A DNA stretch of 64,000 nucleotides from the IMG/VR virus record IMGVR_UViG_3300031578_000021, positions 1 to 64,000 of that record; one strand, 5' to 3'. Positions 1 to 35,108 of the stretch are shown here, in pieces. The DNA is from a virus. The position numbers were made by a program, and so were the translations under genes. How positions within the stretch are numbered: the first letter of the stretch is position 1; each line of letters begins with the position of its first letter. Under the pieces are notes generated by a model, which made no database searches, had not been told where the DNA came from, and was given only the letters and a program-made list of their open reading frames with translations.

Positions 1-18
1 TACAGGAAGTTTGGGATA

Positions 19-64
19 ACCCCTCCATAGCGGGAGCCCTTTTAGGGTGGCCCGCTTTAGGGGT
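19..64 (+). other. Compound RNA hairpin upstream of the first gene
   Basis: Three coaxial helices can be drawn: ACCCCT 19-24 with AGGGGT 59-64, AGCGGG 29-34 with CCCGCT 51-56, and GCCCT 36-40 with AGGGT 44-48. No U-tract follows, so a simple intrinsic terminator is not the obvious reading. It lies about 40 bases before the small gene at 105, so it may be a leader element, or the 3' end of a structured RNA that starts outside the window. Confidence 0.45.
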
Positions 65-104
65 CACTAAGGTCACACAGCATATCCTTTGAAAGGGAAA
101 TATT

Positions 105-272
105 ATGGAAAAGAAGGAAATGGGTTTCATGGCTGCCATGAAGGATTTCTTTGGCTATCGCCCCGGTACGGGCATGAAGGACTTCATGGACGAGATCAAA
201 GCCCTGACTCCGGCCGATAGGGTGGAATTCCGGGGAGGGCTGGAAAAGAACGGCTATATCATCAAGGCGTAA
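105..272 (+). CDS. Small conserved phage protein, 55 aa
   Basis: A 55-residue protein preceded by an AAAGGGAAA ribosome-binding site. A G-M-K-D-F segment precedes an acidic helix with the pattern KALTPADRxEF and a C-terminal GLxxxGY. From memory this resembles small proteins of unknown function found in many proteobacterial phages. No catalytic motif is visible. It is the only gene between the hairpin at 19-64 and the structured RNA starting near 285. Confidence 0.7.
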   Translation: MEKKEMGFMAAMKDFFGYRPGTGMKDFMDEIKALTPADRVEFRGGLEKNGYIIKA

Positions 273-284
273 GCGAAAAAGAAA

Positions 285-634
285 CTTGGGAAATATCCCC
301 CAAGGGCGGGAAGCTAGAAATAGCTGGCCCGCCTAAGGGGCTGTAGGGCGTTAACCTTATAAGATGGTAAATAGCCCAGGAGGTTAAAATGTCATCGTGC
401 TAGGGAAAGCCTAGCGGCCTTTAACCACCATTGGATTTTGGGGGTTTCTTTCTTGGTGGGGCGATGCAATTAAATCCATCTTAGCAATCTCTTAGTAAAT
501 CGAAAGGGAATGAGCGCAACAATGGTTGTACCGTCCTAAGTAGGCTAAGAAAGGCATACATAAGATGGTTGCGTTTCTAGAGCGCATTTTAAAAAAGCAT
601 TATGCGCGCATCATGGGAGGAGTAGCGCCCTCCC
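285..634 (+). ncRNA. Candidate structured non-coding RNA (about 350 nt)
   Basis: There is no convincing ORF between 273 and 696, but many helices. CTTGGG 285-290 pairs with CCCAAG 299-304. GGCGGG 305-310 pairs with CCCGCC 328-333 and encloses AGCTA-GAAA-TAGCT, a stem with a GNRA tetraloop. GGTTAAA 382-388 pairs with TTTAACC 420-426 around GCTAGG/CCTAGC 399-415. CCATCTTA 476-483 pairs with TAAGATGG 561-568, extended by GCAA/TTGC across a bulge, enclosing CTTAG/CTAAG. GCGCAT 582-587 pairs with ATGCGC 602-607. GGGAGG 615-620 with CCTCCC 629-634 could close or terminate the transcript. The class is not recognised; strand is assumed from the neighbouring genes. Confidence 0.6.
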
Positions 635-696
635 CCGCACCACTTTCTTATTTCATTTAGACATTTATCACACTACCATTTAGGGGAGTTTTCACA

Positions 697-912
697 ATGA
701 CAGTAAGCAACCTACCTCCAGGATGCAGTTCCGCAGACGGCGGGATTGACCATGAATACGAAACCGCTCTTGATGAACTTTGCGAGGTTGTTAACGGGGC
801 GCACATTCTTAGGCTTTTGGCTAAGATTGCTCCGGCAATAACCGAGGCTTATTCCCAAGGGTTCAAGGATGGATGGGAAGATGGCAAGCTTACGGTGCTG
901 GAAGGAAGATAA
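697..912 (+). CDS. Hypothetical protein, 71 aa
   Basis: Follows structured RNA 285-634. TAGGGGAG sits 10 bases before the ATG. The C-terminal half has the amphipathic pattern EAYSQGFKDGWEDGK, a GF-x-x-GW arrangement common in short phage proteins that interact with other proteins or RNA, but no family can be named. It is the first gene of a small-ORF run reaching 2061. Confidence 0.65.
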   Translation: MTVSNLPPGCSSADGGIDHEYETALDELCEVVNGAHILRLLAKIAPAITEAYSQGFKDGWEDGKLTVLEGR

Positions 913-922
913 GGAAATTCCA

Positions 923-1204
923 ATGACTACCAAGCGGGAAGTGACAAAGTTCCTCGTATGGCAAGCCTATCATAAGCTTAAGGAAGAAATTGGAGATATC
1001 CCCACTCAAGCCATGGTAGCGGAAAGTCTTGGGCTGAGCCGTGAATGGATTTCCGACATAGCTAAAGACCTTAAGACTTGCAAGTTTCCAAATCGAGGGG
1101 GAATTAATCGAGGAGAAAATGATACAAGGTTCACTAGATATCAACCTCCCGTTGATAAGTTTATTTCCCGTGGGGTTGATAAAGTGATTATTGGGGATAT
1201 GTAA
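923..1204 (+). CDS. Small helix-turn-helix protein, 93 aa
   Basis: The ATG at 923 is preferred because AAGGAAA precedes it; an upstream in-frame ATG at 869 would overlap the previous gene. Residues about 25-45 read as a helix-turn-helix (TQAMVAESLGLSREWIS followed by DIAKDLK), as in sigma-region-4-like or XRE-like DNA-binding modules. The tail is basic and lacks further motifs. Inferred to be a DNA-binding regulator; target unknown. Confidence 0.65.
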   Translation: MTTKREVTKFLVWQAYHKLKEEIGDIPTQAMVAESLGLSREWISDIAKDLKTCKFPNRGGINRGENDTRFTRYQPPVDKFISRGVDKVIIGDM

Positions 1205-1261
1205 TCCCTCCGACCAAAGGGCGGTGCCTAGCGCTCTAGACATTCAATAGGGGAGATTAAA

Positions 1262-1435
1262 ATGTACAACTGGTTTAGAAATACGTATTTCGACCTCCCA
1301 TATGCAATTACGGAATTGCTTATCTCAAATATGGTAGTTGAAAACCTCTCCCATGAAACTGCGTGTCAAATAGCATCAACTCTTCGAACAAGGTTTATAC
1401 AGGAGCAGATAAATGTTGGGGGAGATGGGATTTAG
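1262..1435 (+). CDS. Hypothetical protein, 57 aa
   Basis: An ORF with a GGGGAG site 8 bases before its ATG. The start is aromatic (MYNWFRNTYFD), followed by a helical stretch ending in RTRFIQEQ. No family recognised. Spacing and strand match the surrounding small-gene operon. Confidence 0.55.
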   Translation: MYNWFRNTYFDLPYAITELLISNMVVENLSHETACQIASTLRTRFIQEQINVGGDGI

Positions 1436-1477
1436 GCGGTGCCTCGCAATCCGAAGTTTCACTTAAGGAATAAAACC

Positions 1478-1645
1478 ATGCTTAAAATTTCCATAGAGCC
1501 TACTGAACGGGAAAAGTCCTTAAGAGATATTTATGGCGATCCGAAGGAAGAATGGAAACAGATTGAGCGGGAATTTCTATTACTTCAATTTCGTATGAAG
1601 CAAGAAGAGTTGATATTTAAGGCAAATAAAAATGACTCGGATTGA
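1478..1645 (+). CDS. Hypothetical protein, 55 aa
   Basis: The ATG at 1478 has AAGGAA eight bases upstream; an earlier in-frame GTG at 1439 lacks a site. The protein is highly charged and predicted helical (REKSLRDIYGDPKEEWKQIE). Its end overlaps the next gene by 14 bases, suggesting translational coupling. No function assigned. Confidence 0.6.
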   Translation: MLKISIEPTEREKSLRDIYGDPKEEWKQIEREFLLLQFRMKQEELIFKANKNDSD

Positions 1646-1877
1646 ACTAGAAACTTATATAACCTCTCTTCGCGTCCAAGTAAGACAAACGATGCAAAGG
1701 GAAGCGCAAAGCACGCATAGGCCAATTGCCTTTGGCGTAGTACCAAATACCCACGCGGCGGGTTATATGAATTGCCTAGATACGATTGAAATGCTTCTCC
1801 GAGATAAGTTCAACGAACACGATAAGTTTATGAAAGTCATTCTTGGGGATGGAGTGGAATTGTTGGGTAGATTTTAA
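1632..1877 (+). CDS. Hypothetical protein, 81 aa
   Basis: Starts inside the end of the previous gene. The sequence is mostly helical, with an RxxVRQTMQREAQSTHR stretch and a central HAAGYMNCLDTIEMLL segment. No recognised domain. Confidence 0.6.
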   Translation: MTRIELETYITSLRVQVRQTMQREAQSTHRPIAFGVVPNTHAAGYMNCLDTIEMLLRDKFNEHDKFMKVILGDGVELLGRF

Positions 1878-1878
1878 G

Positions 1879-2061
1879 ATGGCTAAAGTAAAATCCCTTT
1901 GGGAAGATAAATATAATGCCGTGGCGGACCATTACCATTCCGCTTTGGCGGATGGACTTTCCAAAGACACCGCCCTTAGCCACGCCGAGAATGAACTTAA
2001 AGCCCTTGGCTTCTATGGGGAACGGTTGAAGGATGAACTTGAAATCCTAGCGGAAGACTAA
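1879..2061 (+). CDS. Hypothetical helical protein, 60 aa
   Basis: The ATG at 1879 directly follows the previous stop. A short protein with the alternating pattern ADHYHSALADGLSKDTALSHAE, resembling small helical proteins with repeated acidic and alanine residues. Its stop codon lies inside the first strand of the 17-bp closing helix of the giant RNA (2059-2075). Confidence 0.6.
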   Translation: MAKVKSLWEDKYNAVADHYHSALADGLSKDTALSHAENELKALGFYGERLKDELEILAED

Positions 2062-2964
2062 TCTTAACCATGCAGCGGCGTTGAAAATCGCGGAAACGCC
2101 CGAAGCCGATGCAAAGTCACGCTGCAACGTGGTGAAGCGGATAGGCCCTTGCAGGGGAGCTGGAGTAGCGACCAGCCTGCATGGTTAAGATTAGAACTTT
2201 GTTCTTTCTCATTGTAAGAATAGCGCTGCGTCCCTATACGCGATTAGGGATTTCCGCCATGGATATGGACGGTTGATAAGTTAGCAGCCATCGTCCTAAT
2301 GAATTCAACCAGCGCTAACGTTATTTGACATTTGTAAATTATGGTATGGAGTAGTTGGCCCAGCCGCTTGCATACGGGGCTGCAGCCTTGAGATACCCTT
2401 AAGGCTAAAGTGAAAGATGCAAGCCCATACCTTGGTGCGGCAGTACGGAAGGACGTACGGGCCAGCGGAACGCTCCCATGGAGCAAGGCGAATTGGGAAG
2501 TCGGTATCAAGTCCGGCCCGCACCAACCTATTCCCGTTCCCCTTGTCGTCACATGATGGCGCATTAGGATCGAAGTGCAGAAGCCTGTAGCCTCGAACGC
2601 AATCAAGCTATTAGGTGAGAGAACAGGCAACCTTGGCGAAATCGGCCCTTACCACGCCCACCATAGGGCCTATGTGGAAGGGATGCCCCGAGTCGATTGG
2701 CAACGCGAGGTTCAAAGTCCCAAGGCATAGGGACAAGTTAGGCTGGCGACCTAACCTGCACTTCTTAGTTTTTTAGGAAAGGACTGGAACGTCGATCGGA
2801 GGCGTTGACTTTAATACCAAGTGTATCCGATACGCACTTTGGGTTGGTCGGTGGGTTAAACCATTCCCAGCTTTCCTAATTGACGGAACACTGGCCCGGT
2901 GGCTCGGAAAAGGTCAAGGGCTCATGCGTCAATAAAAGGCGCAGTAGTAGACCCCGAGTCCGTC
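2059..2964 (+). ncRNA. Candidate giant ornate non-coding RNA (about 900 nt)
   Basis: No credible ORF occupies this stretch, yet it is full of helices. A perfect 17-bp stem joins 2059-2075 to 2177-2193 around an internal CACG/CGTG hairpin at 2118-2131. Hairpins follow at 2193-2205, 2231-2250 and 2254-2272, with GTTAGC/GCTAAC at 2280/2314. A nested arm stacks GGTATGG 2343, GCTTGCAT 2366 and AGCCTT 2384 against AAGGCT 2401, ATGCAAGC 2417 and CCATACC 2425. TTGGTGCGG 2432-2440 pairs with CCGCACCAA 2518-2526 enclosing GTACG/CGTAC and AGCG/CGCT. Later helices are 2717-2734, 2737-2755, 2773-2781 with 2871-2879, and GACGGA 2882 with TCCGTC 2959. Size, phage context and complexity resemble GOLLD- or ROOL-type giant RNAs (inference); the class itself is unassigned. 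Confidence 0.75.
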
Positions 2965-2983
2965 TAACTTTTGGAGATTTATC

Positions 2984-3256
2984 ATGAAAACCCTAACCAT
3001 CTTAACTTTTGCCCTTCTTCTATCCTCTTGTTCTGGTGATCCAGCCAAGGAACTATGTCTCCGTCAAACTGGAGAATATAACCTTTCCTGTTGGTCCGAA
3101 CAATCGAAGGAGCCTTTTTGGGCTGCAGTCGCCCGAGTTGGAAGGGAAAAGGAAAGACTAGATTATCTTAGGAAGAATGCAAGAAGCCCTTCTAACTATT
3201 CCTTCACCTGTATGACTGAAAGTGGAACGGATTTCATTACGACGAGTTGTTACTAA
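2984..3256 (+). CDS. Small lipoprotein, 90 aa
   Basis: An N-terminal signal with a lipobox: MKTLTILTFALLLSSC, cleavage expected before Cys16. The mature part is short, with several cysteines (CLRQTGEYNLSC, FTCM, SC at the end) that may form disulfides in the periplasm. TTGGAG precedes the ATG by 6 bases. Membrane-anchored phage lipoproteins can serve in superinfection exclusion or lysis; which applies here is not visible. It follows the giant RNA by 20 bases. Confidence 0.7.
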   Translation: MKTLTILTFALLLSSCSGDPAKELCLRQTGEYNLSCWSEQSKEPFWAAVARVGREKERLDYLRKNARSPSNYSFTCMTESGTDFITTSCY

Positions 3257-3287
3257 CCCTTCAACCTTACTTTAGGGGAGCCCTAAA

Positions 3288-3674
3288 ATGTTCAACCAAA
3301 CCAAAGTTCACGGAGAAGTTACGCTTCAATCTCTTTTGGAAAAGATGGAAGAGACCTTTTCTAACAAACCGTATGGGAAGGATGATCCTCTACCAACCAT
3401 TACGCTCTTTACATCCAGTGAGAGGTTTGGGGTAGAGGTTTATTCTTTTACCCCAGAAACATACATTAAAATGTCCCATACCAATGTAGGACTTTTTATC
3501 TATGACCTGTTAATACACTCTCTTCATGACAGCCTTGTGGGTTATTACAAAGGGTCCAGCCGTTCACTTCAAGATATGGGAATAATCCCAAACACCTACA
3601 ACGGACGGAAAACCTTTTTTACCCTCTATGATGCGGTCAACTGGATCAAGCAGTCTGAGGGAAAGGAAGATTAG
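3288..3674 (+). CDS. Hypothetical protein, 128 aa
   Basis: Strong AGGGGAG site upstream. A soluble mixed alpha/beta sequence with segments such as PTITLFTSSERFGVEVY and GLFIYDLLIHSLHDSL. No family recognised. Its TAG stop abuts the first helix (GCCAGC 3674-3679) of the ribozyme-bearing RNA region. Confidence 0.6.
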   Translation: MFNQTKVHGEVTLQSLLEKMEETFSNKPYGKDDPLPTITLFTSSERFGVEVYSFTPETYIKMSHTNVGLFIYDLLIHSLHDSLVGYYKGSSRSLQDMGIIPNTYNGRKTFFTLYDAVNWIKQSEGKED

Positions 3675-4000
3675 CCAGCATATTCTATATTCATCCCCCA
3701 ACTCTGCTGGCTATGGTTGGGGCGTCTTATCGGAGCGAGATTATATTAGGCCAGTCTATCCGATACCCTGGGCTGGCCACGTTCGGGAAATACCTCTGAT
3801 GAGCCCTTATCAAGGAAAGGGCGAAACCGCCTAGCGGTCAGGTAGGGCCTTGGAAGTGGGTTTGGTCCATTACCGAAGGGTATGTTTTGAGGTTAGGTTA
3901 GCTACCTTAATCAGATATACTCAGGCAAACCGGGATGCATAACGGGGCAAAACTTCCTCGATTTTTATATTAGTTATATCATTTGCTTAAACCTTATCGG
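3672..4000 (+). ncRNA. Structured RNA region containing a hammerhead ribozyme
   Basis: A gene-free 330-base region. Upstream of the ribozyme, GCCAGC 3674-3679 pairs with GCTGGC 3706-3711 while CCCCAAC 3696-3702 pairs with GTTGGGG 3716-3722, an H-type pseudoknot arrangement. TATCGG 3728-3733 pairs with CCGATA 3760-3765 and GGCCAG 3749-3754 with CTGGCC 3773-3778, again interleaved. Downstream of the cleavage site there is a GGGCC/GGTCC stem, a TACC-GAAG-GGTA hairpin near 3872, and CTACCT 3902-3907, which could pair with AGGTAG 3840-3845 once the ribozyme has cut. Boundaries are approximate. Confidence 0.6.
3791..3844 (+). ncRNA. Hammerhead ribozyme (type I)
   Basis: All conserved core elements are present. 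Stem I is TACCT 3791-3795 with AGGTA 3840-3844. The core CTGATGA is 3796-3802. Stem II is GCCCTT 3803-3808 with AAGGGC 3817-3822 closing an 8-base loop. GAA is 3823-3825. Stem III is ACCGC 3826-3830 with GCGGT 3834-3838 around a CTA triloop. The expected cleavage is after C3839 (position C17). Stem I is the open helix, and GGCC 3775-3778 with GGCC 3846-3849 could extend it across an internal loop. A cut would release a 5' end 169 bases before the gene at 4009. Confidence 0.93.
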
Positions 4001-4008
4001 AGATAATC

Positions 4009-4551
4009 ATGACCACAAAGCTCACAATCACCGAGGCCCTTGCCGAACTCAAGACCATTTCCAAGCGTATCAATAAAAAGAAAGAATTTATCCTCACCTA
4101 CCTCCTCCGCCAGGACGCTTTCAAAGACCCCCTTGAGAAGGATGGGGGCTCCGTATCTGCAATCGCGGCGGAAACCCAATCCATTCGGGATCTGGAGTCC
4201 CGCGCCATTGGTATCCGCATGGCGATCACCAACGCCAACCTGCAAACCCAAGTGACTGTTGGGGATGTTCCGAATTCCATTGCGGAGTGGCTCATTTGGC
4301 GCCGTGATATCGCCCCCGGTCGGCAGGAATTCAACAAAACCCTCCGTGATCGTATCGCCCGCACAAGGCAAGAGGCGACGAAGAAGGGCCTCTCTGTTGG
4401 GGCGGTTGGTGAAATCACCAAGCCGGATGATGTTATCGTTAACTTGAATGAAAAGACCCTCGCTGCCGAAGCGGAGAAGCTTGAACAGCTTCTTGGGGAC
4501 TTGGATGGGCAACTGTCGCTGAAGAATGCGACGACGTTTGTGGAGGTTTAG
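4009..4551 (+). CDS. Conserved phage protein with coiled-coil ends, 180 aa
   Basis: ATCGGAGA lies 6 bases upstream of the ATG. An N-terminal helix (ITEALAELKTISKRINKKKEF) is followed by a basic and acidic pattern, a TVGDVPNSIAEWLIWRRDIAPG centre, and a helical C-terminus (KTLAAEAEKLEQLLGDLDGQL). From memory it resembles phage proteins of unknown function with the same layout, possibly related to the DIP1984 group. It is the gene immediately downstream of the hammerhead, so its mRNA 5' end may be generated by self-cleavage. Confidence 0.65.
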   Translation: MTTKLTITEALAELKTISKRINKKKEFILTYLLRQDAFKDPLEKDGGSVSAIAAETQSIRDLESRAIGIRMAITNANLQTQVTVGDVPNSIAEWLIWRRDIAPGRQEFNKTLRDRIARTRQEATKKGLSVGAVGEITKPDDVIVNLNEKTLAAEAEKLEQLLGDLDGQLSLKNATTFVEV

Positions 4552-4553
4552 TC

Positions 4554-4808
4554 GTGCCTCAAAAAGATCGTACTGTAATGAACGAATGCTGGTCCTGCCA
4601 GCATAAACGAGAGGTTCCTGGAAATTATCATATCAGATGTGTAAAGCCGGACCCTGATATGAAAGGTAACGAACACGGCATTAGAAAGGGCTGGTTCATG
4701 TATCCGTTTCTTTTCGATCCAACATGGAAAGAAAAGCTTTGTAACAACTATCAGAAGATCGAAGATGCGAACAGTGCAGTTAGTGGCTCAGTAAGCGGCG
4801 CGGTGTAA
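4554..4808 (+). CDS. Small zinc-finger-like protein, 84 aa
   Basis: GTG start at 4554, chosen because GGAGG (4542-4546) is correctly spaced; an in-frame ATG at 4578 has no site. The motif CWSCQHKREVPGNYHIRC with a later CNNY gives four cysteines suited to binding one metal. The CxxC...VPGxxHIxC pattern occurs in short phage proteins of unknown role. A low-complexity SGSVSGAV tail ends the protein. Confidence 0.65.
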   Translation: MPQKDRTVMNECWSCQHKREVPGNYHIRCVKPDPDMKGNEHGIRKGWFMYPFLFDPTWKEKLCNNYQKIEDANSAVSGSVSGAV

Positions 4809-5237
4809 GGCCCGATCACACGGCAGGCCAGTAGGTATAACTGAAAACTTGTCAAGGGCATTGTAAGTCGTCCAGTTAGTAGTCCAGTCAGTCACGACGA
4901 GTAGCATCAAATTGATTTGCCTTCTTAGCGAAGTGGGAAAATGTTAAGACCAATGGTAGCTCATTTGGATAGAGCAACGGACTTCTAATCCGTGTGTAGC
5001 GGGTTCAACTCCCGTCCACAACAGCCAATTCTTAAAAGCTTAGGGCTGGCAACCCACCAAAAAGGTTAGAAGGTCAGCTATTCAAAGACGAGGAGCTCAG
5101 GTCTGAAAGTTAGACAAAATCCGTCGGTTATCTGGTTCTTGCAGAGATGTAAGAAATGCTTGCTTAACGAAGTATTCCCAGGATGATGGCTGCTAAGTAG
5201 GGCGTTATTATATAATGTTTGGTAGGGGTATTCTACA
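4809..5237 (+). ncRNA. Structured gene-free region around a tRNA-like element
   Basis: No gene is seen in these 429 bases. Local helices include GTCGT 4867-4871 with ACGAC 4894-4898, CTTC/GAAG 4921-4933, GACG 5087-5090 with CGTC 5122-5125 enclosing GTCT/AGAC 5101-5115, and TTCTT 5136-5140 with AAGAA 5151-5155. A tRNA-Arg-like fold sits in the middle, clamped by TTAAGA 4944-4949 and TCTTAA 5030-5035. It may be a third structured RNA with an embedded tRNA-like domain; this is weaker than the case for 2059-2964. Confidence 0.4.
4944..5035 (+). tRNA. tRNA-Arg(UCU)-like element with disrupted acceptor stem
   Basis: The D arm (GCTC-ATTTGGAT-A-GAGC), the anticodon arm (ACGGA-CTTCTAA-TCCGT, anticodon TCT at 4984-4986) and the T arm (GCGGG-TTCAACT-CCCGT) are all good. 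The acceptor is not: 3' CCACAAC 5016-5022 faces CCAATGG 4950-4956, which pairs only at TGG/CCA. The missing GTT is found at 4943-4945, separated by 7 bases. GCCA follows rather than a clean discriminator plus CCA. An outer TTAAGA/TCTTAA helix closes the whole. It is either a decayed tRNA or a tRNA mimic. Confidence 0.6.
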
Positions 5238-5504
5238 ATGCACCAAAACGATATTGATAAAGAAGTATTAGCAAAAATGCGAAAACATTTTGGAATACCG
5301 GATGCAACTTCAAATGAGGATGTTTTAAAAGTCACTAAGGATACACTTATATTTGCTCAAGTTAGATTACAGCTTGCCTTTCGGCATCTCTTCTACGACG
5401 CCCTTAAACCACTTATCTTAAGTGCTAGGTTTCTTGAACATTTCTTTTATGCAATTCTTATAATGATTTGTTTAGTTCTTATCTATGAACGTTTCGGCGC
5501 ATAG
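5238..5504 (+). CDS. Small membrane protein, 88 aa
   Basis: A charged, helical N-terminal half ([19 protein letters not shown]) precedes one C-terminal membrane segment, about residues 66-84 ([19 protein letters not shown]). A TATAAT-like box at 5211-5216 lies just upstream without a convincing -35. Its last codons and stop overlap the first 10 bases of tRNA-Pro, so tRNA processing would cut this mRNA at its stop codon. Function unknown. Confidence 0.6.
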
Positions 5505-5571
5505 CGCAGCCTGGTAGCGCGTCGCGTTTGGGACGCGAAGGTCGCAGGTTCAAATCCTGCTGCGCCGACCA
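5495..5571 (+). tRNA. tRNA-Pro(UGG)
   Basis: Complete cloverleaf: acceptor CGGCGCA with TGCGCCG, D stem GCGC/GCGC, anticodon arm TCGCG-TTTGGGA-CGCGA with anticodon TGG, T arm GCAGG-TTCAAAT-CCTGC, discriminator A and encoded CCA at 5569-5571. The 5' end lies inside the 3' end of the upstream coding sequence. Confidence 0.95.
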
Positions 5572-5587
5572 AACTTAGGGGAAGATT

Positions 5588-5755
5588 ATGGAAAAGACAA
5601 GACGAGAAATTATCCTTGACACAATCAAAGAACTAGTCCCCGACCCTCTTTACTACGACCCTAAAATAGAAGAAGCACTATACAACAATGAAATATCTAT
5701 CGAGGATATGGTCATTGCCTTTAGACATGCTCTTAAAGAAGGTACGGGAAGCTGA
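5588..5755 (+). CDS. Hypothetical protein, 55 aa
   Basis: A short acidic ORF with AGGGGAAG before the ATG. The sequence contains the helical pieces REIILDTIKELVPD and DMVIAFRHALKEG. No family recognised. It sits between tRNA-Pro and the pyrimidine-dimer glycosylase-like gene. Confidence 0.55.
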   Translation: MEKTRREIILDTIKELVPDPLYYDPKIEEALYNNEISIEDMVIAFRHALKEGTGS

Positions 5756-8309: not shown

Positions 8310-8633
8310 ATGAGTATAACTTTTTTGGAAACTTATATTATTCCTGGAGATTGCGAATATAACATTGAGGATTATGAACAAGAAGGCGAGCACTTTTTCC
8401 CAAAGAGCTATACTAATGGAAAGGTTAAACGCTTTAGACTTTGGCGTGGCGGTTGTGGTATTGGTTCCTTCGACTCTATTGAAGAGGCCCGTAAAATGCT
8501 CAACCATTATGTAATAGAACAAAATACTGTAAACAAAGAAGTATTACTACAAAAGTTGGCTATAGTTGAAAATGTTTTGTCAGCACTTTCAGGTGATTAT
8601 TTCTACCTTGGAAAATTTATGACCAACGATTAG
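8310..8633 (+). CDS. Hypothetical protein, 107 aa
   Basis: GGAGGGGG upstream. The N-terminal half is acidic (CEYNIEDYEQEGEHFF), followed by RFRLWRGGCGIGSFDSIEEARKML, which reads as a beta-hairpin plus helix typical of small phage cargo proteins. No family assignment. Confidence 0.55.
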   Translation: MSITFLETYIIPGDCEYNIEDYEQEGEHFFPKSYTNGKVKRFRLWRGGCGIGSFDSIEEARKMLNHYVIEQNTVNKEVLLQKLAIVENVLSALSGDYFYLGKFMTND

Positions 8634-8644
8634 GAAGATTACTA

Positions 8645-8863
8645 ATGGGCTCCCATCCAAACATAACCTACGAGAAATTCCCACGTCAAGGCACGATGCT
8701 TAACGAAAAGGTCAAAGTTTGCTTCCACCATGATACGACTAAGCATTATGCGGGGATTGTAATTCGGGACGACGTTGAGGAACCATTTCGGACAATCATT
8801 CAATTGGATAATGGAAGGGTGTTGCTAGCGGAAGAGTGTCAATATGCGCTTTGGGAGTATTAA
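8645..8863 (+). CDS. Small beta-barrel-like protein, 72 aa
   Basis: GGAAGA upstream. Pattern of alternating strands (KVKVCFHHDTTKHYAGIVIRDD, then RTIIQLDNGRVLLAEECQYALW) resembles a small SH3-like barrel of the sort that binds nucleic acid or modifies enzymes. This is a fold guess only. Confidence 0.5.
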   Translation: MGSHPNITYEKFPRQGTMLNEKVKVCFHHDTTKHYAGIVIRDDVEEPFRTIIQLDNGRVLLAEECQYALWEY

Positions 8864-8865
8864 AA

Positions 8866-9048
8866 GTGAACAAATCACAAACAGCCGCTTATAATACTAT
8901 CCTTAAGATATTTCTTGCCCTACCTTGGGCAGATAGGGCGGAGGTCTTCTCCGCTATTAGATCAAATCCAGTATTTTGTACTGAATGTGGATATGGGGAA
9001 TTAGACAGTCCTAATAAGGATTGTGGCTGTAATTGGGATATAGAATGA
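8866..9048 (+). CDS. Small cysteine-rich protein, 60 aa
   Basis: GTG start at 8866 with GGGAG eight bases upstream. A helical N-terminus is followed by FCTECGYGELDSPNKDCGC, four cysteines placed for a zinc knuckle. Overlaps the following zinc-ribbon gene by ATGA. Confidence 0.6.
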   Translation: MNKSQTAAYNTILKIFLALPWADRAEVFSAIRSNPVFCTECGYGELDSPNKDCGCNWDIE

Positions 9049-9248
9049 TGCAACCTATCTGTCCAAAGTGTGGAAGTGTTAAAGTCCACCCCCAAGGAAG
9101 CCAGGGAGTTTGTGACGAAACTGACTGTGGCTACATAGCCCCTTGGAAGAGCTTTAAGAAAGCACCACTAGAGCCGCATTATGAAAAACCCTGCAACACG
9201 AAATGGCGTGATCCAGTCGCATTAAGTATGGATGGGTATGATGAATAG
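9045..9248 (+). CDS. Zinc-ribbon protein, 67 aa
   Basis: ATG at 9045 overlaps the previous stop. ICPKCGSVKV with GVCDETDCGYIAPW makes a CxxC...CxxxxC zinc-ribbon. The rest is short and basic. Its stop codon shares one base with tRNA-Met/Ile2. A generic nucleic-acid-binding adaptor is the likeliest role. Confidence 0.6.
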   Translation: MMQPICPKCGSVKVHPQGSQGVCDETDCGYIAPWKSFKKAPLEPHYEKPCNTKWRDPVALSMDGYDE

Positions 9249-9324
9249 CCCTCATAGCTTAATTGGTTAGAGCTTCGGACTCATAATCCGCAGGTTCCAG
9301 GTTCGAGTCCTGGTGGGGGCACCA
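9248..9324 (+). tRNA. tRNA-Met or Ile2 (anticodon CAU)
   Basis: Acceptor GCCCTCA with TGGGGGC (one G-U), D arm GCTTAATTGGTTAGAGC, anticodon loop CTCATAA with CAT, T arm CCAGG-TTCGAGT-CCTGG, discriminator A and encoded CCA ending at 9324. The anticodon-stem first pair is mismatched (T-C). Whether it is elongator Met or lysidine-modified Ile2 cannot be decided by eye. Confidence 0.93.
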
Positions 9325-9375
9325 ATCTTTGAGACTAAAATGGAAATTTCATGTCTTTGACAATGGAGAGTTATA

Positions 9376-9552
9376 ATGCCAACCGAAATCAAGCAATGGA
9401 CTGTCGAGCTAATCTCCGACTTCCGCGAGACCTTCCGCAAATCCCTAATCTTCCATATCTTCAAAACAACGGAGGATAAACTAGGTATTTGGGAGCATCG
9501 TGGAGGACGTAAATTCAAAGGCCATATCGGCCTACCTTGGATTAATGAGTAA
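9376..9552 (+). CDS. Hypothetical protein, 58 aa
   Basis: GGAGAG seven bases upstream of the ATG. Aromatic and basic: WTVELISDFRETFRK, then IWEHRGGRKFKGHIGLPW. Its TAA overlaps the next gene's ATG. No family recognised. Confidence 0.55.
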   Translation: MPTEIKQWTVELISDFRETFRKSLIFHIFKTTEDKLGIWEHRGGRKFKGHIGLPWINE

Positions 9553-9857
9553 TGGCTGGCTCTGCCCCCTGCCCTAAGTGTGGACATCTAGAAAGTCAAA
9601 CCCGCACAACATCTCTCAGGACCGGCGGGGTTAGGTGGAGATATCGGGAATGCCTTAATTGCAAACATAAGTTTGTAACGGTAGAGGTTCCAAGGGAAGA
9701 ATATAAAAAACTTGTCGTCTATCGTAGAATTTACCAGCACCTTCAAAGCGTATTCAACCTAAGTGTAATAGATGTTGATAAATTGCTAAGAGAAGAAGAT
9801 AGGCCCCTTTTTGGCTACAAGGGTGGACGTAGAAGGAAACCTAGAGTTATTGGATAA
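9552..9857 (+). CDS. NrdR-like zinc-ribbon protein, 101 aa
   Basis: Residues about 7-45 carry CPKCGHLESQTRTTSLRTGG then RYRECLNCKHKFVTVE, the zinc-ribbon signature of the transcriptional repressor NrdR. The ATP-cone domain of true NrdR is absent; instead there is a helical tail with a basic end (GGRRRKPR). Probably a phage nucleic-acid-binding regulator derived from or convergent with NrdR. Confidence 0.7.
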   Translation: MAGSAPCPKCGHLESQTRTTSLRTGGVRWRYRECLNCKHKFVTVEVPREEYKKLVVYRRIYQHLQSVFNLSVIDVDKLLREEDRPLFGYKGGRRRKPRVIG

Positions 9858-9868
9858 AGGAATGCACT

Positions 9869-10018
9869 ATGGCAAAGATGGCATTAAGTCTGACCGGAAA
9901 ACCAATTAAGAAGAGGGCGAAAAAGGAACCAAGTGGGATTGAAAAGGGGATTTTAGTTATTCTTGGGGTTTTCTTGGTATTCGTAGTGGTATTTATTTTC
10001 TTGGTTGGGGGAGGGTGA
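9869..10018 (+). CDS. Single-span membrane protein, 49 aa
   Basis: A short basic N-terminus (KPIKKRAKKE) precedes one membrane segment (GILVILGVFLVFVVVFIFLVGGG). Topology predicted N-in by positive charges. Could be a small holin-like or stress protein; nothing specific is visible. Confidence 0.6.
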   Translation: MAKMALSLTGKPIKKRAKKEPSGIEKGILVILGVFLVFVVVFIFLVGGG

Positions 10019-10019
10019 G

Positions 10020-10268
10020 ATGGCGGTAGGCATTCATACCATTCAAACCAGGATAACTTTAAAGTTTGATTGCATAGTCTATACGCAAAGCCGCAAAAGA
10101 CTGGACGAAGATGCCATAAAGGACAGGGTAATTCCCATCCTAATACCAAAGATTAAACAAGTTGAAGATGAGATTGCTGGGCTACGTTTTAAGGAATATG
10201 ACTGGCATTTTAAATCGGTCCCATTTATGAAGCGCTGGTTTTCTGGAAAGGGGAAGAATGATGGCTGA
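10020..10268 (+). CDS. Hypothetical protein, 82 aa
   Basis: ATG at 10020 one base after the previous stop, with GGGGGAGGG upstream. Helical (KRLDEDAIKDRVIPILIPKIKQVEDEIAGL) and basic at the C-terminus. Overlaps the next gene by 11 bases. Confidence 0.55.
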   Translation: MAVGIHTIQTRITLKFDCIVYTQSRKRLDEDAIKDRVIPILIPKIKQVEDEIAGLRFKEYDWHFKSVPFMKRWFSGKGKNDG

Positions 10269-10840: not shown

Positions 10841-11262
10841 GCGAGTTGAGCGACGGGCTGCGCAGACTCTCGGCTTGGATGAAGGACCGCGATCTTGATA
10901 TGCAAGCCCCGAAGGGGATCGACGACCCAGAAGACGCCGCCGACGCCCTGGACGCCAACGAACGCGAGATAGCCCTGTTGAAACGGCGAGAATATGCTTA
11001 CGAGAAGATGGCTGACCACGCCATGGCGCTGGACGCGGAGATAGCCAACCTGATCGCCGAGCGGGACGAAGCACGGGATGACGCATCCAATATGCGCGGC
11101 GATAGATTCGACCTTGGAGAAGAGGTAATGAAACTGACCGCAGAGCGCGACGCGGCCTGGAACGAGGCGATCGAGGCGGCTGCTAAAGCTTGTGAAGCCT
11201 TAGACCACCCCAGGGATTATGCTGATGAATTTGCTTTTTACGTTCGGGAATTGAAGCGATGA
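10837..11262 (+). CDS. Coiled-coil accessory protein, 141 aa
   Basis: ATGA overlap with the previous gene. Long heptad-like stretches (ALDANEREIALLKRREYAYE, LDAEIANLIAERDEARDDA) resemble phage Ea59/Ea22-like coiled-coil proteins. No enzymatic motif. GC-rich over the first 330 bases, returning to background at the 3' end, which suggests a mosaic junction inside the gene. Confidence 0.6.
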   Translation: MSELSDGLRRLSAWMKDRDLDMQAPKGIDDPEDAADALDANEREIALLKRREYAYEKMADHAMALDAEIANLIAERDEARDDASNMRGDRFDLGEEVMKLTAERDAAWNEAIEAAAKACEALDHPRDYADEFAFYVRELKR

Positions 11263-11471
11263 TCCTCAAAATGGGCTGTGCCTTTTGCGGCGCCCACTTA
11301 ACAGAAAAAAGTATCCACGTATGGGACGTTGACAATTCTGACCAATGCGAAAATGGCAGGTTTGAGCCTCCAACATATTCTATCTCAATCATATGCCCCT
11401 CCTGTAAGAAAGAGTTGTATAGGAAAGAGCAAGCATATACAGAATATTCTGCTCCACGGTATAGGGAATAG
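11259..11471 (+). CDS. Zinc-binding small protein, 70 aa
   Basis: Two CxxC pairs, CAFCGAHL near residue 7 and ICPSCKKEL near residue 46, form a split zinc-ribbon. ATGA-coupled to the previous gene. Function unknown. Confidence 0.6.
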   Translation: MILKMGCAFCGAHLTEKSIHVWDVDNSDQCENGRFEPPTYSISIICPSCKKELYRKEQAYTEYSAPRYRE

Positions 11472-11475
11472 TTAG

Positions 11476-11853
11476 ATGAAAAACCTTATCGCAAAACTTG
11501 AGGCAGCGTCTAAGGGTAGTAGGGAGTTGGACTGTGACATCTTCTGTGCAACAGCGCCCAGTCCCTTTGAAAGTCACTATCCAGATTGCGTTCTTGCCGT
11601 GTTGGGGGGATTTGTGGCCCGCGTTGAGATAGACGAAATACCCAACTTTACCATCAGCCTTGACGCGGCCCTGACGCTGGTGCCGGAAGGGTGGATTTTG
11701 GACTCGCTGTCCGATGATGCTACGGGAAGCGTTGGGTCAATGAAAGCGTTTGGCGCTACCTGTGAAGTGACAAATGGGGAACTTGGATTGCAGGGGCAGG
11801 CCGTGTCAAGAGCGCTCGCCCTCTGTATCGCAGCCCTAAAGACGAGGCTCTAA
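11476..11853 (+). CDS. Conserved phage protein (LDAALTLVPEGW family), 125 aa
   Basis: Begins KNLIAKLEAASKGSRELDCDI and contains ISLDAALTLVPEGWILDSL and a VSRALALCIAALKTRL end. These three blocks recur in a phage protein family I recognise from alphaproteobacterial phages, function unknown. Length is typical. Confidence 0.7.
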   Translation: MKNLIAKLEAASKGSRELDCDIFCATAPSPFESHYPDCVLAVLGGFVARVEIDEIPNFTISLDAALTLVPEGWILDSLSDDATGSVGSMKAFGATCEVTNGELGLQGQAVSRALALCIAALKTRL

Positions 11854-33189: not shown

Positions 33190-33478
33190 TATTATGCCAA
33201 AAGTATACAATAAGCGATGCGACCATATACCAGATGGTGCTGTATATATTGGAAGGCCCTCTAAATGGGGAAACCCATTTAAGATTGGGCAATGGTATAA
33301 TGGAAAAAAATTGACTCGGCAAGACTCTATCGATTGCTATGAGGATTGGCTTTTGAATTCTGATGAAGGAATAAAACTTCTAAAAGACATTCATGATCTT
33401 AAAGGAAAAGATTTGGTTTGTTGGTGTTCTCCGGAAGCTTGTCACGGAGATATTCTATTAAGGCTTGCAAATGAATAA
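33182..33478 (+). CDS. DUF4326 protein, 98 aa
   Basis: VYIGRPSKWGNPFKIGQWYNG and LKGKDLVCWCSPEACHGDIL match DUF4326, a phage family with conserved CWCxPxxCHG metal-like residues. ATG at 33182 overlaps the methyltransferase end. Its stop falls inside the polymerase start. Confidence 0.85.
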   Translation: MSDIMPKVYNKRCDHIPDGAVYIGRPSKWGNPFKIGQWYNGKKLTRQDSIDCYEDWLLNSDEGIKLLKDIHDLKGKDLVCWCSPEACHGDILLRLANE

Positions 33479-35108
33479 ACTAATAATCTCCGGCCCCCAA
33501 CCTGCCCGCATAATGTTCGTCGGGGAAGCCCCTGGGGATAAAGAGGTCGAGACTGGCCGCCCCCTGACTGGACCTTCCGGCTGGGAATTCTCCAAAATGT
33601 GTTCGGAAGCAGGGATCGTTCGCGAGTCGTGCTTCATAACAAACTTACTCCAAGAACGTCCCCCTGGAAAGATTGAGGATCTTTTCTATAAGAAGACTGA
33701 GGCTAAACTTAGGGGGGTTACGGAGTTTAAGGGAAGATACCCGGCGCAATCTATAATTGATGGGTACAATACACTACAATCTCTTATCGTCCAAACTCGC
33801 CCTAACGTAATCGTTCCCCTGGGTGATGCGGCCCTTTGGGCACTGACAGGAAATAGTGGCATAACTAAGTGGAGGGGAAGTACACTAAGCGCAAAAGTTG
33901 AGGGACTTGACTATGAGCCTAAAATCATTCCAACTTTTAACCCTGCCGGTGTGCTCCGCAATTGGCCTTGGCGATGGATGGTTGTTAACGACCTTAAGCG
34001 AGTCGCAGCCGGAGCACACACCCACGAAATATCACTACCAGATTGGAGCTTTATCCTCCGACCAAGCCTACAGACTTGCCTCGATTGGCTGGGGGAAGCA
34101 AAGGGAAAAACTCTTGTCTGCGATATTGAGACCAGAGGATATAACATATCATGCATTGGATTTGCATTAGATAAACATAACGCGATCTGTATCCCAATGA
34201 TGCTCTTGGAGGAACCCTATAGTTATTGGAGCCCCGAAGACGAACTTGCCATAACCCTTAAACTTAAAGAATTATTTGAGGATAAATCTACAACCCTAAT
34301 TTTCCATAACGCTTTCTTCGATATGCAGGTAATCGCTCGGCAATGGGGCTTTATCCCGGCCAACTTCGAAGATACGATGGTTATGCAGCACGTCGCATTT
34401 GCGGCGGATATGCCAAAGTCGTTGGCTTTCTGCGCTTCGATGTATTGCAATTATTACTGCTTCTGGAAGGATGACGGGAAGGAATGGAATATTAAGGAAT
34501 TTGGGGAGGATACGCATTGGGAATATAACGCAACGGATTGTGCTTACACCTACGAAGTTTATGAGATGCTCGTCCGCATCTTGAAAGCCTATAATCTTTC
34601 CGAACAATATGCCTTCCAGCGCAGGCTAATGCGTTCCCTCCTTATGATGATGTTTCGAGGGATTAAGGTCGACACCGCCTATAAGCAAAAACTTAACATC
34701 ATGCTACTTAAGCAAATTCAAGAACATAATCAATGGTTCGAGGATGTACTCGGGCACCCACTTAATCCTTCAAGCAATCCTCAGATGAAAATGCTTTTTC
34801 ACAACGACTTTAAGGCGCCTATCTATAAACACAAGAAAACAAAACAACCCACGCTTGACGATGAGGCACTTAAGAAGACTAAGGAAAAGATCCCACTTCT
34901 TCGCCCACTCGTTGATGGTATTCTTGAGGTTCGTTCGTTAGGAGTGTTTAGAAATACCTTTGCCCTTGCGGAGATAGATGAGGATAATAGGGCGAGATGC
35001 TTGTTTAACCCTGCGAGGGTTGAGACCTATCGTTTGTCGTCTTCGCAAAATATTTTTGGGACAGGGCTTAATTTGCAGACTATTCCTAAGGGGAGGGAAG
35101 ATGAATAG
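33471..35108 (+). CDS. polA: UDG-like/family A DNA polymerase, N-terminal half, 545 aa
   Basis: ATG at 33471. Residues 1-180 form a uracil-DNA-glycosylase-like domain (GEAPG 18-22, TGPSG 33-37) as in SPO1-type polymerases, but the UDG H-P motif reads F-N-P at 156-158, so activity is doubtful. Residues about 210-370 are the 3'-5' exonuclease: D218/E220 (CDIE), N280/D284 (HNAFFD), Y352/D356 (YNATD). The thumb region ends with RVETYRLSSSQN and NLQTIPKGREDE, then a stop. The palm motifs A, B and C are absent and appear in the separate gene at 36124, so the polymerase is split. Confidence 0.92.
   Translation: MNKLIISGPQPARIMFVGEAPGDKEVETGRPLTGPSGWEFSKMCSEAGIVRESCFITNLLQERPPGKIEDLFYKKTEAKLRGVTEFKGRYPAQSIIDGYNTLQSLIVQTRPNVIVPLGDAALWALTGNSGITKWRGSTLSAKVEGLDYEPKIIPTFNPAGVLRNWPWRWMVVNDLKRVAAGAHTHEISLPDWSFILRPSLQTCLDWLGEAKGKTLVCDIETRGYNISCIGFALDKHNAICIPMMLLEEPYSYWSPEDELAITLKLKELFEDKSTTLIFHNAFFDMQVIARQWGFIPANFEDTMVMQHVAFAADMPKSLAFCASMYCNYYCFWKDDGKEWNIKEFGEDTHWEYNATDCAYTYEVYEMLVRILKAYNLSEQYAFQRRLMRSLLMMMFRGIKVDTAYKQKLNIMLLKQIQEHNQWFEDVLGHPLNPSSNPQMKMLFHNDFKAPIYKHKKTKQPTLDDEALKKTKEKIPLLRPLVDGILEVRSLGVFRNTFALAEIDEDNRARCLFNPARVETYRLSSSQNIFGTGLNLQTIPKGREDE

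Follow-up and report, generated by a model that had tools for sequence, protein, structure and literature searches.

A gene-free kilobase near the left end of a tailed phage

The window, i.e. the whole stretch of 64,000 nt that was analysed, belongs to the 65,059-nt virus record of a tailed phage, among whose genes are those for terminase, portal, capsid, tape measure and polymerase A. At 33465-35108, a single open reading frame combines a domain resembling uracil-DNA glycosylase with a 3'-5' exonuclease and the beginning of a DNA polymerase of family A. The left end of the window harbours small genes, tRNAs and several gaps without genes. The region studied here is bounded by the stop codon of the gene 1879-2061 and by the gene 2984-3256. 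An earlier sequence-only reading had described it as a gene-free kilobase filled by one ornate non-coding RNA of about 900 nt, and the first part of this description is accurate: No plus-strand open reading frame of at least 60 amino acids lies inside 2062-2983. Promoter-like or terminator-like sites were not found in 1800-3100.

The folding energy of the 906 nt lies well below that of shuffled sequences (z about -4.3 to -4.5), as compared to a mean z of -1.3 +/- 1.5 for 14 further segments of equal length from this phage, the lowest of which reached -3.7, and to only -2.5 for the antisense strand of the region. This energy excess is real but moderate, and we regard it as suggestive rather than as decisive by itself. 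At the scale of 300-nt windows, the folding energy of the region does not stand out.

Other RNA-like stretches are present in the vicinity. The gene-free gaps at 271-660 (z of -3.7) and 3675-4008 contain RNA-like sequence, and a search for homologues of both returned none. Moreover, a second conserved RNA is located at 4915-5213 directly 3' of the gene 4009-4551 and occurs in more than 20 relatives. It consists of a leader AGCGAAGTGAGAAA, a tRNA, an A-rich stretch and a closing CCRCC..GGTGGCTG part; the tRNA part is degenerate or absent in some relatives and is permuted in L180, there with a sub-threshold match to YrlA. The whole of this RNA is covered by no Rfam family.

Two tandem copies of one structured RNA element

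The region contains two tandem copies (2058-2194 and 2432-2526, both on the plus strand) of one structured phage RNA element that is apparently undescribed. The element has a length of about 95-135 nt and four arms. From 5' to 3', its consensus consists of the closing helix P1, C-R, the arm P2 with the loop GAWGGA, a variable linker with the arm P4, an invariant A, and the arm P3 with the 8-nt loop UAUCAAGC, which stacks directly on P1. The closing helix is variable in sequence and has a median of 9 bp (range 1-22 bp); P4 is of variable length and ends just 5' of the invariant A.

In copy 2, P1 (2432-2440/2518-2526, 9 bp) corresponds to the stem closing two hairpins that had been proposed from the sequence, and it is both real and conserved. 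It encloses P2 (2443-2447/2454-2458, loop GAAGGA), P4 (2474-2478/2494-2498), the invariant A2499 and P3 (2500-2504/2513-2517, loop TATCAAGT). In copy 1, the outer stem that the sequence-only reading had given as 17 bp is in fact a perfect 18-bp inverted repeat (P1, 2058-2075/2177-2194), the sole perfect non-palindromic repeat among the 25 longest inverted repeats within 300 nt in the window. It is followed by P2 (2078-2082/2095-2099, loop GAAAATCGCGGA), a putative P4 (2146-2156), A2158 and P3 (2159-2163/2172-2176, loop AGTAGCGA). Copy 1 has kept its helices, and its arm A-GCTGG-loop-CCAGC still stacks on P1, but the loop sequences differ: The loops GAWGGA and UAUCAAG are present in copy 2, whereas copy 1 has GAAAATCGCGGA and AGTAGCGA instead.

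A covariance model built from the single sequence 2341-2528 (R1) gave one convincing match in 0.96 Mb of relatives (27.8 bits, E=1.1e-4), which spans the 2433-2525 domain only and lies in L174, the nearest relative as judged by the protein of the neighbouring gene 4009-4551. The window and L174 have the hairpin loops GAAGGA and ATCAAG in common, and compensatory changes distinguish the stems of the two sequences. A pattern derived from these two loops was used to scan IMG/VR: At least 119 stretches were found, and 89 of those listed passed a loose hairpin filter, from which L300 and L349 were discarded as chance coding matches. The resulting alignment of three helices (A5) comprises 80 distinct members. 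In P2 and P3, the pattern prescribed no more than the loops and one or two of the innermost pairs; P1 was subject to neither pattern nor filter. Nevertheless, at pairs 9 to 14 of P1, between 72 and 78 of the 80 members have a standard pair, with four Watson-Crick types each, and double changes occur at 22 of the 25 pairs of the alignment. The covariation score of the whole structure is 0.52, as opposed to 0.16 for shuffles and 0.09-0.14 for slid partners, and a subset of 40 members gave the same covariation as the full set. For P4, the last four nucleotides of the linker find a complement in 40 of 80 linkers, with 17 expected. On the two points by which the sequence-only reading was to be judged, covariation among homologues and a conserved coding frame, the outcome favours RNA; a structured non-coding RNA is indeed present in this phage.

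A second sample, consisting of 80 unfiltered hits of a pattern with the loop variant GATGGA, falls into two clearly distinct groups: P2 and P3 are complete in 43 of these hits, and all 43 also have P1 (at least 6 of 8 pairs), while in the other 37 P1 is near background. In this sample, 46 hits score 52-90 bits.

A covariance model from 40 members that excluded the window and L174 (R3) recognises both parts of the region: Copy 2 is matched at 2426-2534 with 66.7 bits (E=2.1e-12), and copy 1 at 2061-2193 with 36.4 bits (E=1.1e-5; E=3.1e-7 on 6 kb without filters). It follows that the 17-bp stem and the 9-bp stem of the sequence-only reading mark two copies of a single element. None of the 4227 models of Rfam 15 matches the element, either in the window at 1-5600 (E<=10) or in ten loci that carry it (E<=0.5), and a search of open-access papers yielded no description of it.

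The remaining part of the region, about 680 nt once the two copies are set aside, has good folds without comparative support and is unproven as RNA structure. Between the copies (2195-2431, plus strand), a helix 2221-2228/2310-2317 and a nested arm at 2343-2431 are predicted. The latter had been described as a three-tier arm, and it does appear with pair probabilities of 0.97-0.99, but in a single-sequence fold only and without a homologue. Similarly, the single-sequence fold of the stretch after copy 2 (2527-2964, plus strand) predicts a multi-branched domain at 2572-2764 and distal helices at 2773-2964; of the distal long-range pairings proposed earlier, 2773-2779/2873-2879 (0.55) and 2901-2907/2954-2960 (0.91) are present in the fold but have no homologue. 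A possible third match of R3 at 2214-2326 is non-significant (8.6 bits, E=0.46).

The region had been read, by analogy to GOLLD and ROOL, as a single giant and ornate RNA of about 900 nt, of which copies 1 and 2 would form two domains; this reading has to be weighed against that of separate small elements. Its z of about -4.4 is the lowest of the 906-nt windows tested and remains at -4.47 if copy 1 is removed, the entire kilobase lacks genes, and relatives have other long gene-free RNA-like stretches close by. However, two of the helices on which it was built belong to copies of a separate element of about 95-135 nt that is mostly solitary elsewhere, and the whole has no match in Rfam at E<=10. 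Moreover, blastn and nhmmer searches with the whole 900 nt gave no homologue in about 250 loci, 50 whole virus records, nearly all of which carry the neighbouring 4009 gene, and 50,697 phage records. All loci were also searched with the loop of P3 from copy 1 and with two loops from the domain at 2572-2764, and no convincing partner was found. In the full-length minimum-energy fold, 2458-2465 pairs with 2891-2898 and thus competes with the domain 2432-2526 that is supported by evolution. We consider a single RNA of this size improbable. As a caution, what looks like a large "ornate RNA" in a single sequence may consist of several small RNAs in an array.

In the course of these searches, an apparent 70% match to the region in L120 was dropped as it is located within a coding gene, and long gene-free gaps in relatives were rejected as homologues: They correspond to a tmRNA (L208, 7714-8101, minus strand, a phage tmRNA according to Rfam), tRNA arrays, missed coding sequence and unrelated giant RNAs. 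One such array, L178 10580-14780 in a phage with a 4009 homologue, is very dense and apparently contains more than 20 tRNA genes by eye. In L181 (8915-10775), L222 (8925-10935) and L245 (130-2270), gene-free stretches of about 1.85-2 kb are homologous to each other; L181 and L222 are about 60% identical here with many compensatory changes, and the stretch of L181 has no Rfam match. This is a candidate for a giant RNA family larger than GOLLD. Similar-looking stretches in L187 (9550-11310), L180 (3300-5090) and L175 (6540-7390) cannot be aligned. Finally, L211 has an ornate RNA-like gap of about 500 nt (11140-11690; z of -4.35 for 10920-11683) with neither an Rfam match nor a homologue.

Distribution, strand and possible function

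The element is carried by at least about 120 distinct IMG/VR loci and by five cultured phages of Alpha- and Betaproteobacteria and one cyanobacterium: Acidovorax phage AP1, Alcaligenes phage QDWS595, Caulobacter phage DMCA, Komagataeibacter phage phiKX1 and Pseudanabaena phage Pan3. In these five phages it scores 56-81 bits and always lies in unannotated intergenic DNA; in phage DMCA, which infects Caulobacter vibrioides CB15, its position is about 25.55-25.70 kb. Covariation thus supports an RNA class that occurs in well over 100 phage sequences, where it lies between genes without annotation and belongs to no Rfam family. The element is mostly present in a single copy, and other tandem pairs are found in L297, with 7 nt between the copies, and in L282 (71 nt) and its relative L335 (82 nt). 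A clear match was obtained for only L174, L210 and L211 among the 50 whole records, nearly all of them carriers of the 4009 gene, indicating that the element moves independently of its neighbours. The genes next to it have nothing evident in common across loci. In addition, a tRNA gene is located within 1.5 kb of the element in 13 of 80 cases, compared to 6.8% at random. In Bordetella phage PHB04 (L367, 4718-4980), a gene-free stretch of 2.7 kb looks by eye like a permuted tmRNA accompanied by further structured RNA and by a degenerate version of the element.

Two lines of evidence indirectly show that the element acts as a plus-strand RNA: In the helices, G-U pairs exceed A-C mismatches (27 versus 7, P=4e-4), and where the two neighbours are co-directional, the element shares their direction in 50 of 59 cases (P=3e-8); both P values are optimistic because the sequences are related. 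The same observations speak against a hairpin at the DNA level, such as a site for replication, packaging or recombination. Sites in folded single-stranded DNA also have a closing stem that is often long and of free sequence, and the conserved loops could be read as DNA, but the strand bias with the genes speaks against this idea, and the excess of G-U over A-C would not be expected of a DNA hairpin. We regard this possibility as highly improbable.

As the best explanation, which we hold at about even confidence, the region carries tandem copies of a structured phage RNA that would be processed to a small RNA acting in trans. The element would be transcribed within an operon of its phage, and its RNA would fold into a compact cloverleaf-like body that unites the two conserved loops. 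It would then be released, or persist, as a small stable RNA and act in trans on a widely conserved component of the host, most likely tRNA or the translation machinery. A role in trans is suggested by the lack of a shared neighbour gene, the proximity to tRNAs, the distant hosts and the recurrent tandem copies; together with the occurrence in both orientations and the cloverleaf order of the arms, this leads us to prefer a small and stable RNA whose counterpart in the host would be a conserved component. In a more specific and decidedly tentative version, the element may represent a widespread class of tRNA-like small phage RNAs whose two invariant loops meet at the elbow and which use this shape to interact with the machinery of tRNA or translation in widely differing bacteria, with diverged tandem copies in some phages, including this one.

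A cis-acting operon element, which would control antitermination, processing or stability of the adjacent gene within a polycistronic transcript, comes as a close second and is a possible, though not the more probable, reading. The strong co-direction with the neighbouring genes fits it as well as a role in trans. Its location is often a narrow gap that it fills between co-directional genes, with a fit to within a few nucleotides in L263, L305, L364 and L290, and in some loci it is directly followed by a ribosome-binding site. However, the element is antisense to both neighbours in nine cases and precedes a convergent gene in six, the adjacent genes are unrelated between loci, and a switch in cis has no need of tandem copies. 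One cis target gene was rejected on account of the diversity of the neighbours, and the element as its own terminator since only 5 of 80 members have a T-run after P1 (control, 1.7). It is also conceivable, if rather improbable, that the element is a self-cleaving ribozyme that cuts phage transcripts with the conserved loops as its catalytic core. Its size, its few invariant nucleotides, its scattered positions and the lack of a fixed neighbour generally resemble small ribozyme classes. Yet, it is two apical loops, and not internal loops or junctions, that contain the invariant nucleotides, and a cleavage-site consensus is not seen. The compact consensus, the natural tandem pairs and the culturable phages make the role of the element directly testable by deletion.

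Comparison with known RNAs

GOLLD and ROOL RNAs are encoded in gene-free stretches of phage or prophage genomes with tRNA genes nearby, and their function is unknown (PMC12286853). The element has a phage setting, a gene-free stretch and tRNA genes not far away in common with them. However, GOLLD and ROOL are single RNAs of about 600-800 nt or more, whereas the element has about 95-135 nt, a different fold and usually stands alone; conservation is limited to these units and does not extend over a single RNA of about 600-900 nt. The likeness that had been drawn from the size and setting of the region thus finds no support, nor does the associated idea of large homo-oligomers, and the accompanying remark that the sequence is not obviously either of the two was correct: The models of GOLLD, ROOL and OLE gave no match at E<=10 in 1-5600 and none at the gathering score in the whole window.

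The put RNA of phage HK022 and the EAR element of Bacillus are compact multi-hairpin RNAs inside operons, and so is the element. Their loops and architecture appear to differ from those of the element, which has no match in Rfam. In the Ro-associated Y RNAs, as in the element, the paired ends form a closing stem with arms inside, and one carrier, L287, encodes a phage Ro60 protein (TROVE and vWA domains, 8349-10082) 77 nt upstream of the element; a cluster of tRNA genes lies at a distance of about 1.5 kb. We rejected a partnership with a phage-encoded Ro60, as a Ro/TROVE protein of the phage itself is present in 1 of 50 carriers and not in the phage of the window.

In the order of its parts, the element resembles tRNAs and tRNA-like RNAs such as the tmRNA domain and YrlA: a closing stem, a 2-nt linker, an arm with a GG loop, a variable arm, an A and an arm of 5 bp that stacks directly on the closing stem. 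A tRNA has an acceptor stem of 7 bp, a 7-nt T-loop (UUCRANY) and an anticodon arm. In the element, P1 has 1-22 bp rather than 7, the 8-nt loop of P3 lacks the T-loop sequence, and there is no conserved 3' end. Stem length and loop sequence thus exclude a tRNA, and there was no tRNA, tmRNA or YrlA call at the element and no tRNA call at copy 1 or 2. The likeness to tRNA is one of topology only. As the sequence-only reading had suspected, although for a much larger RNA, the element is probably a new RNA class, and its function may yet be of a known kind.
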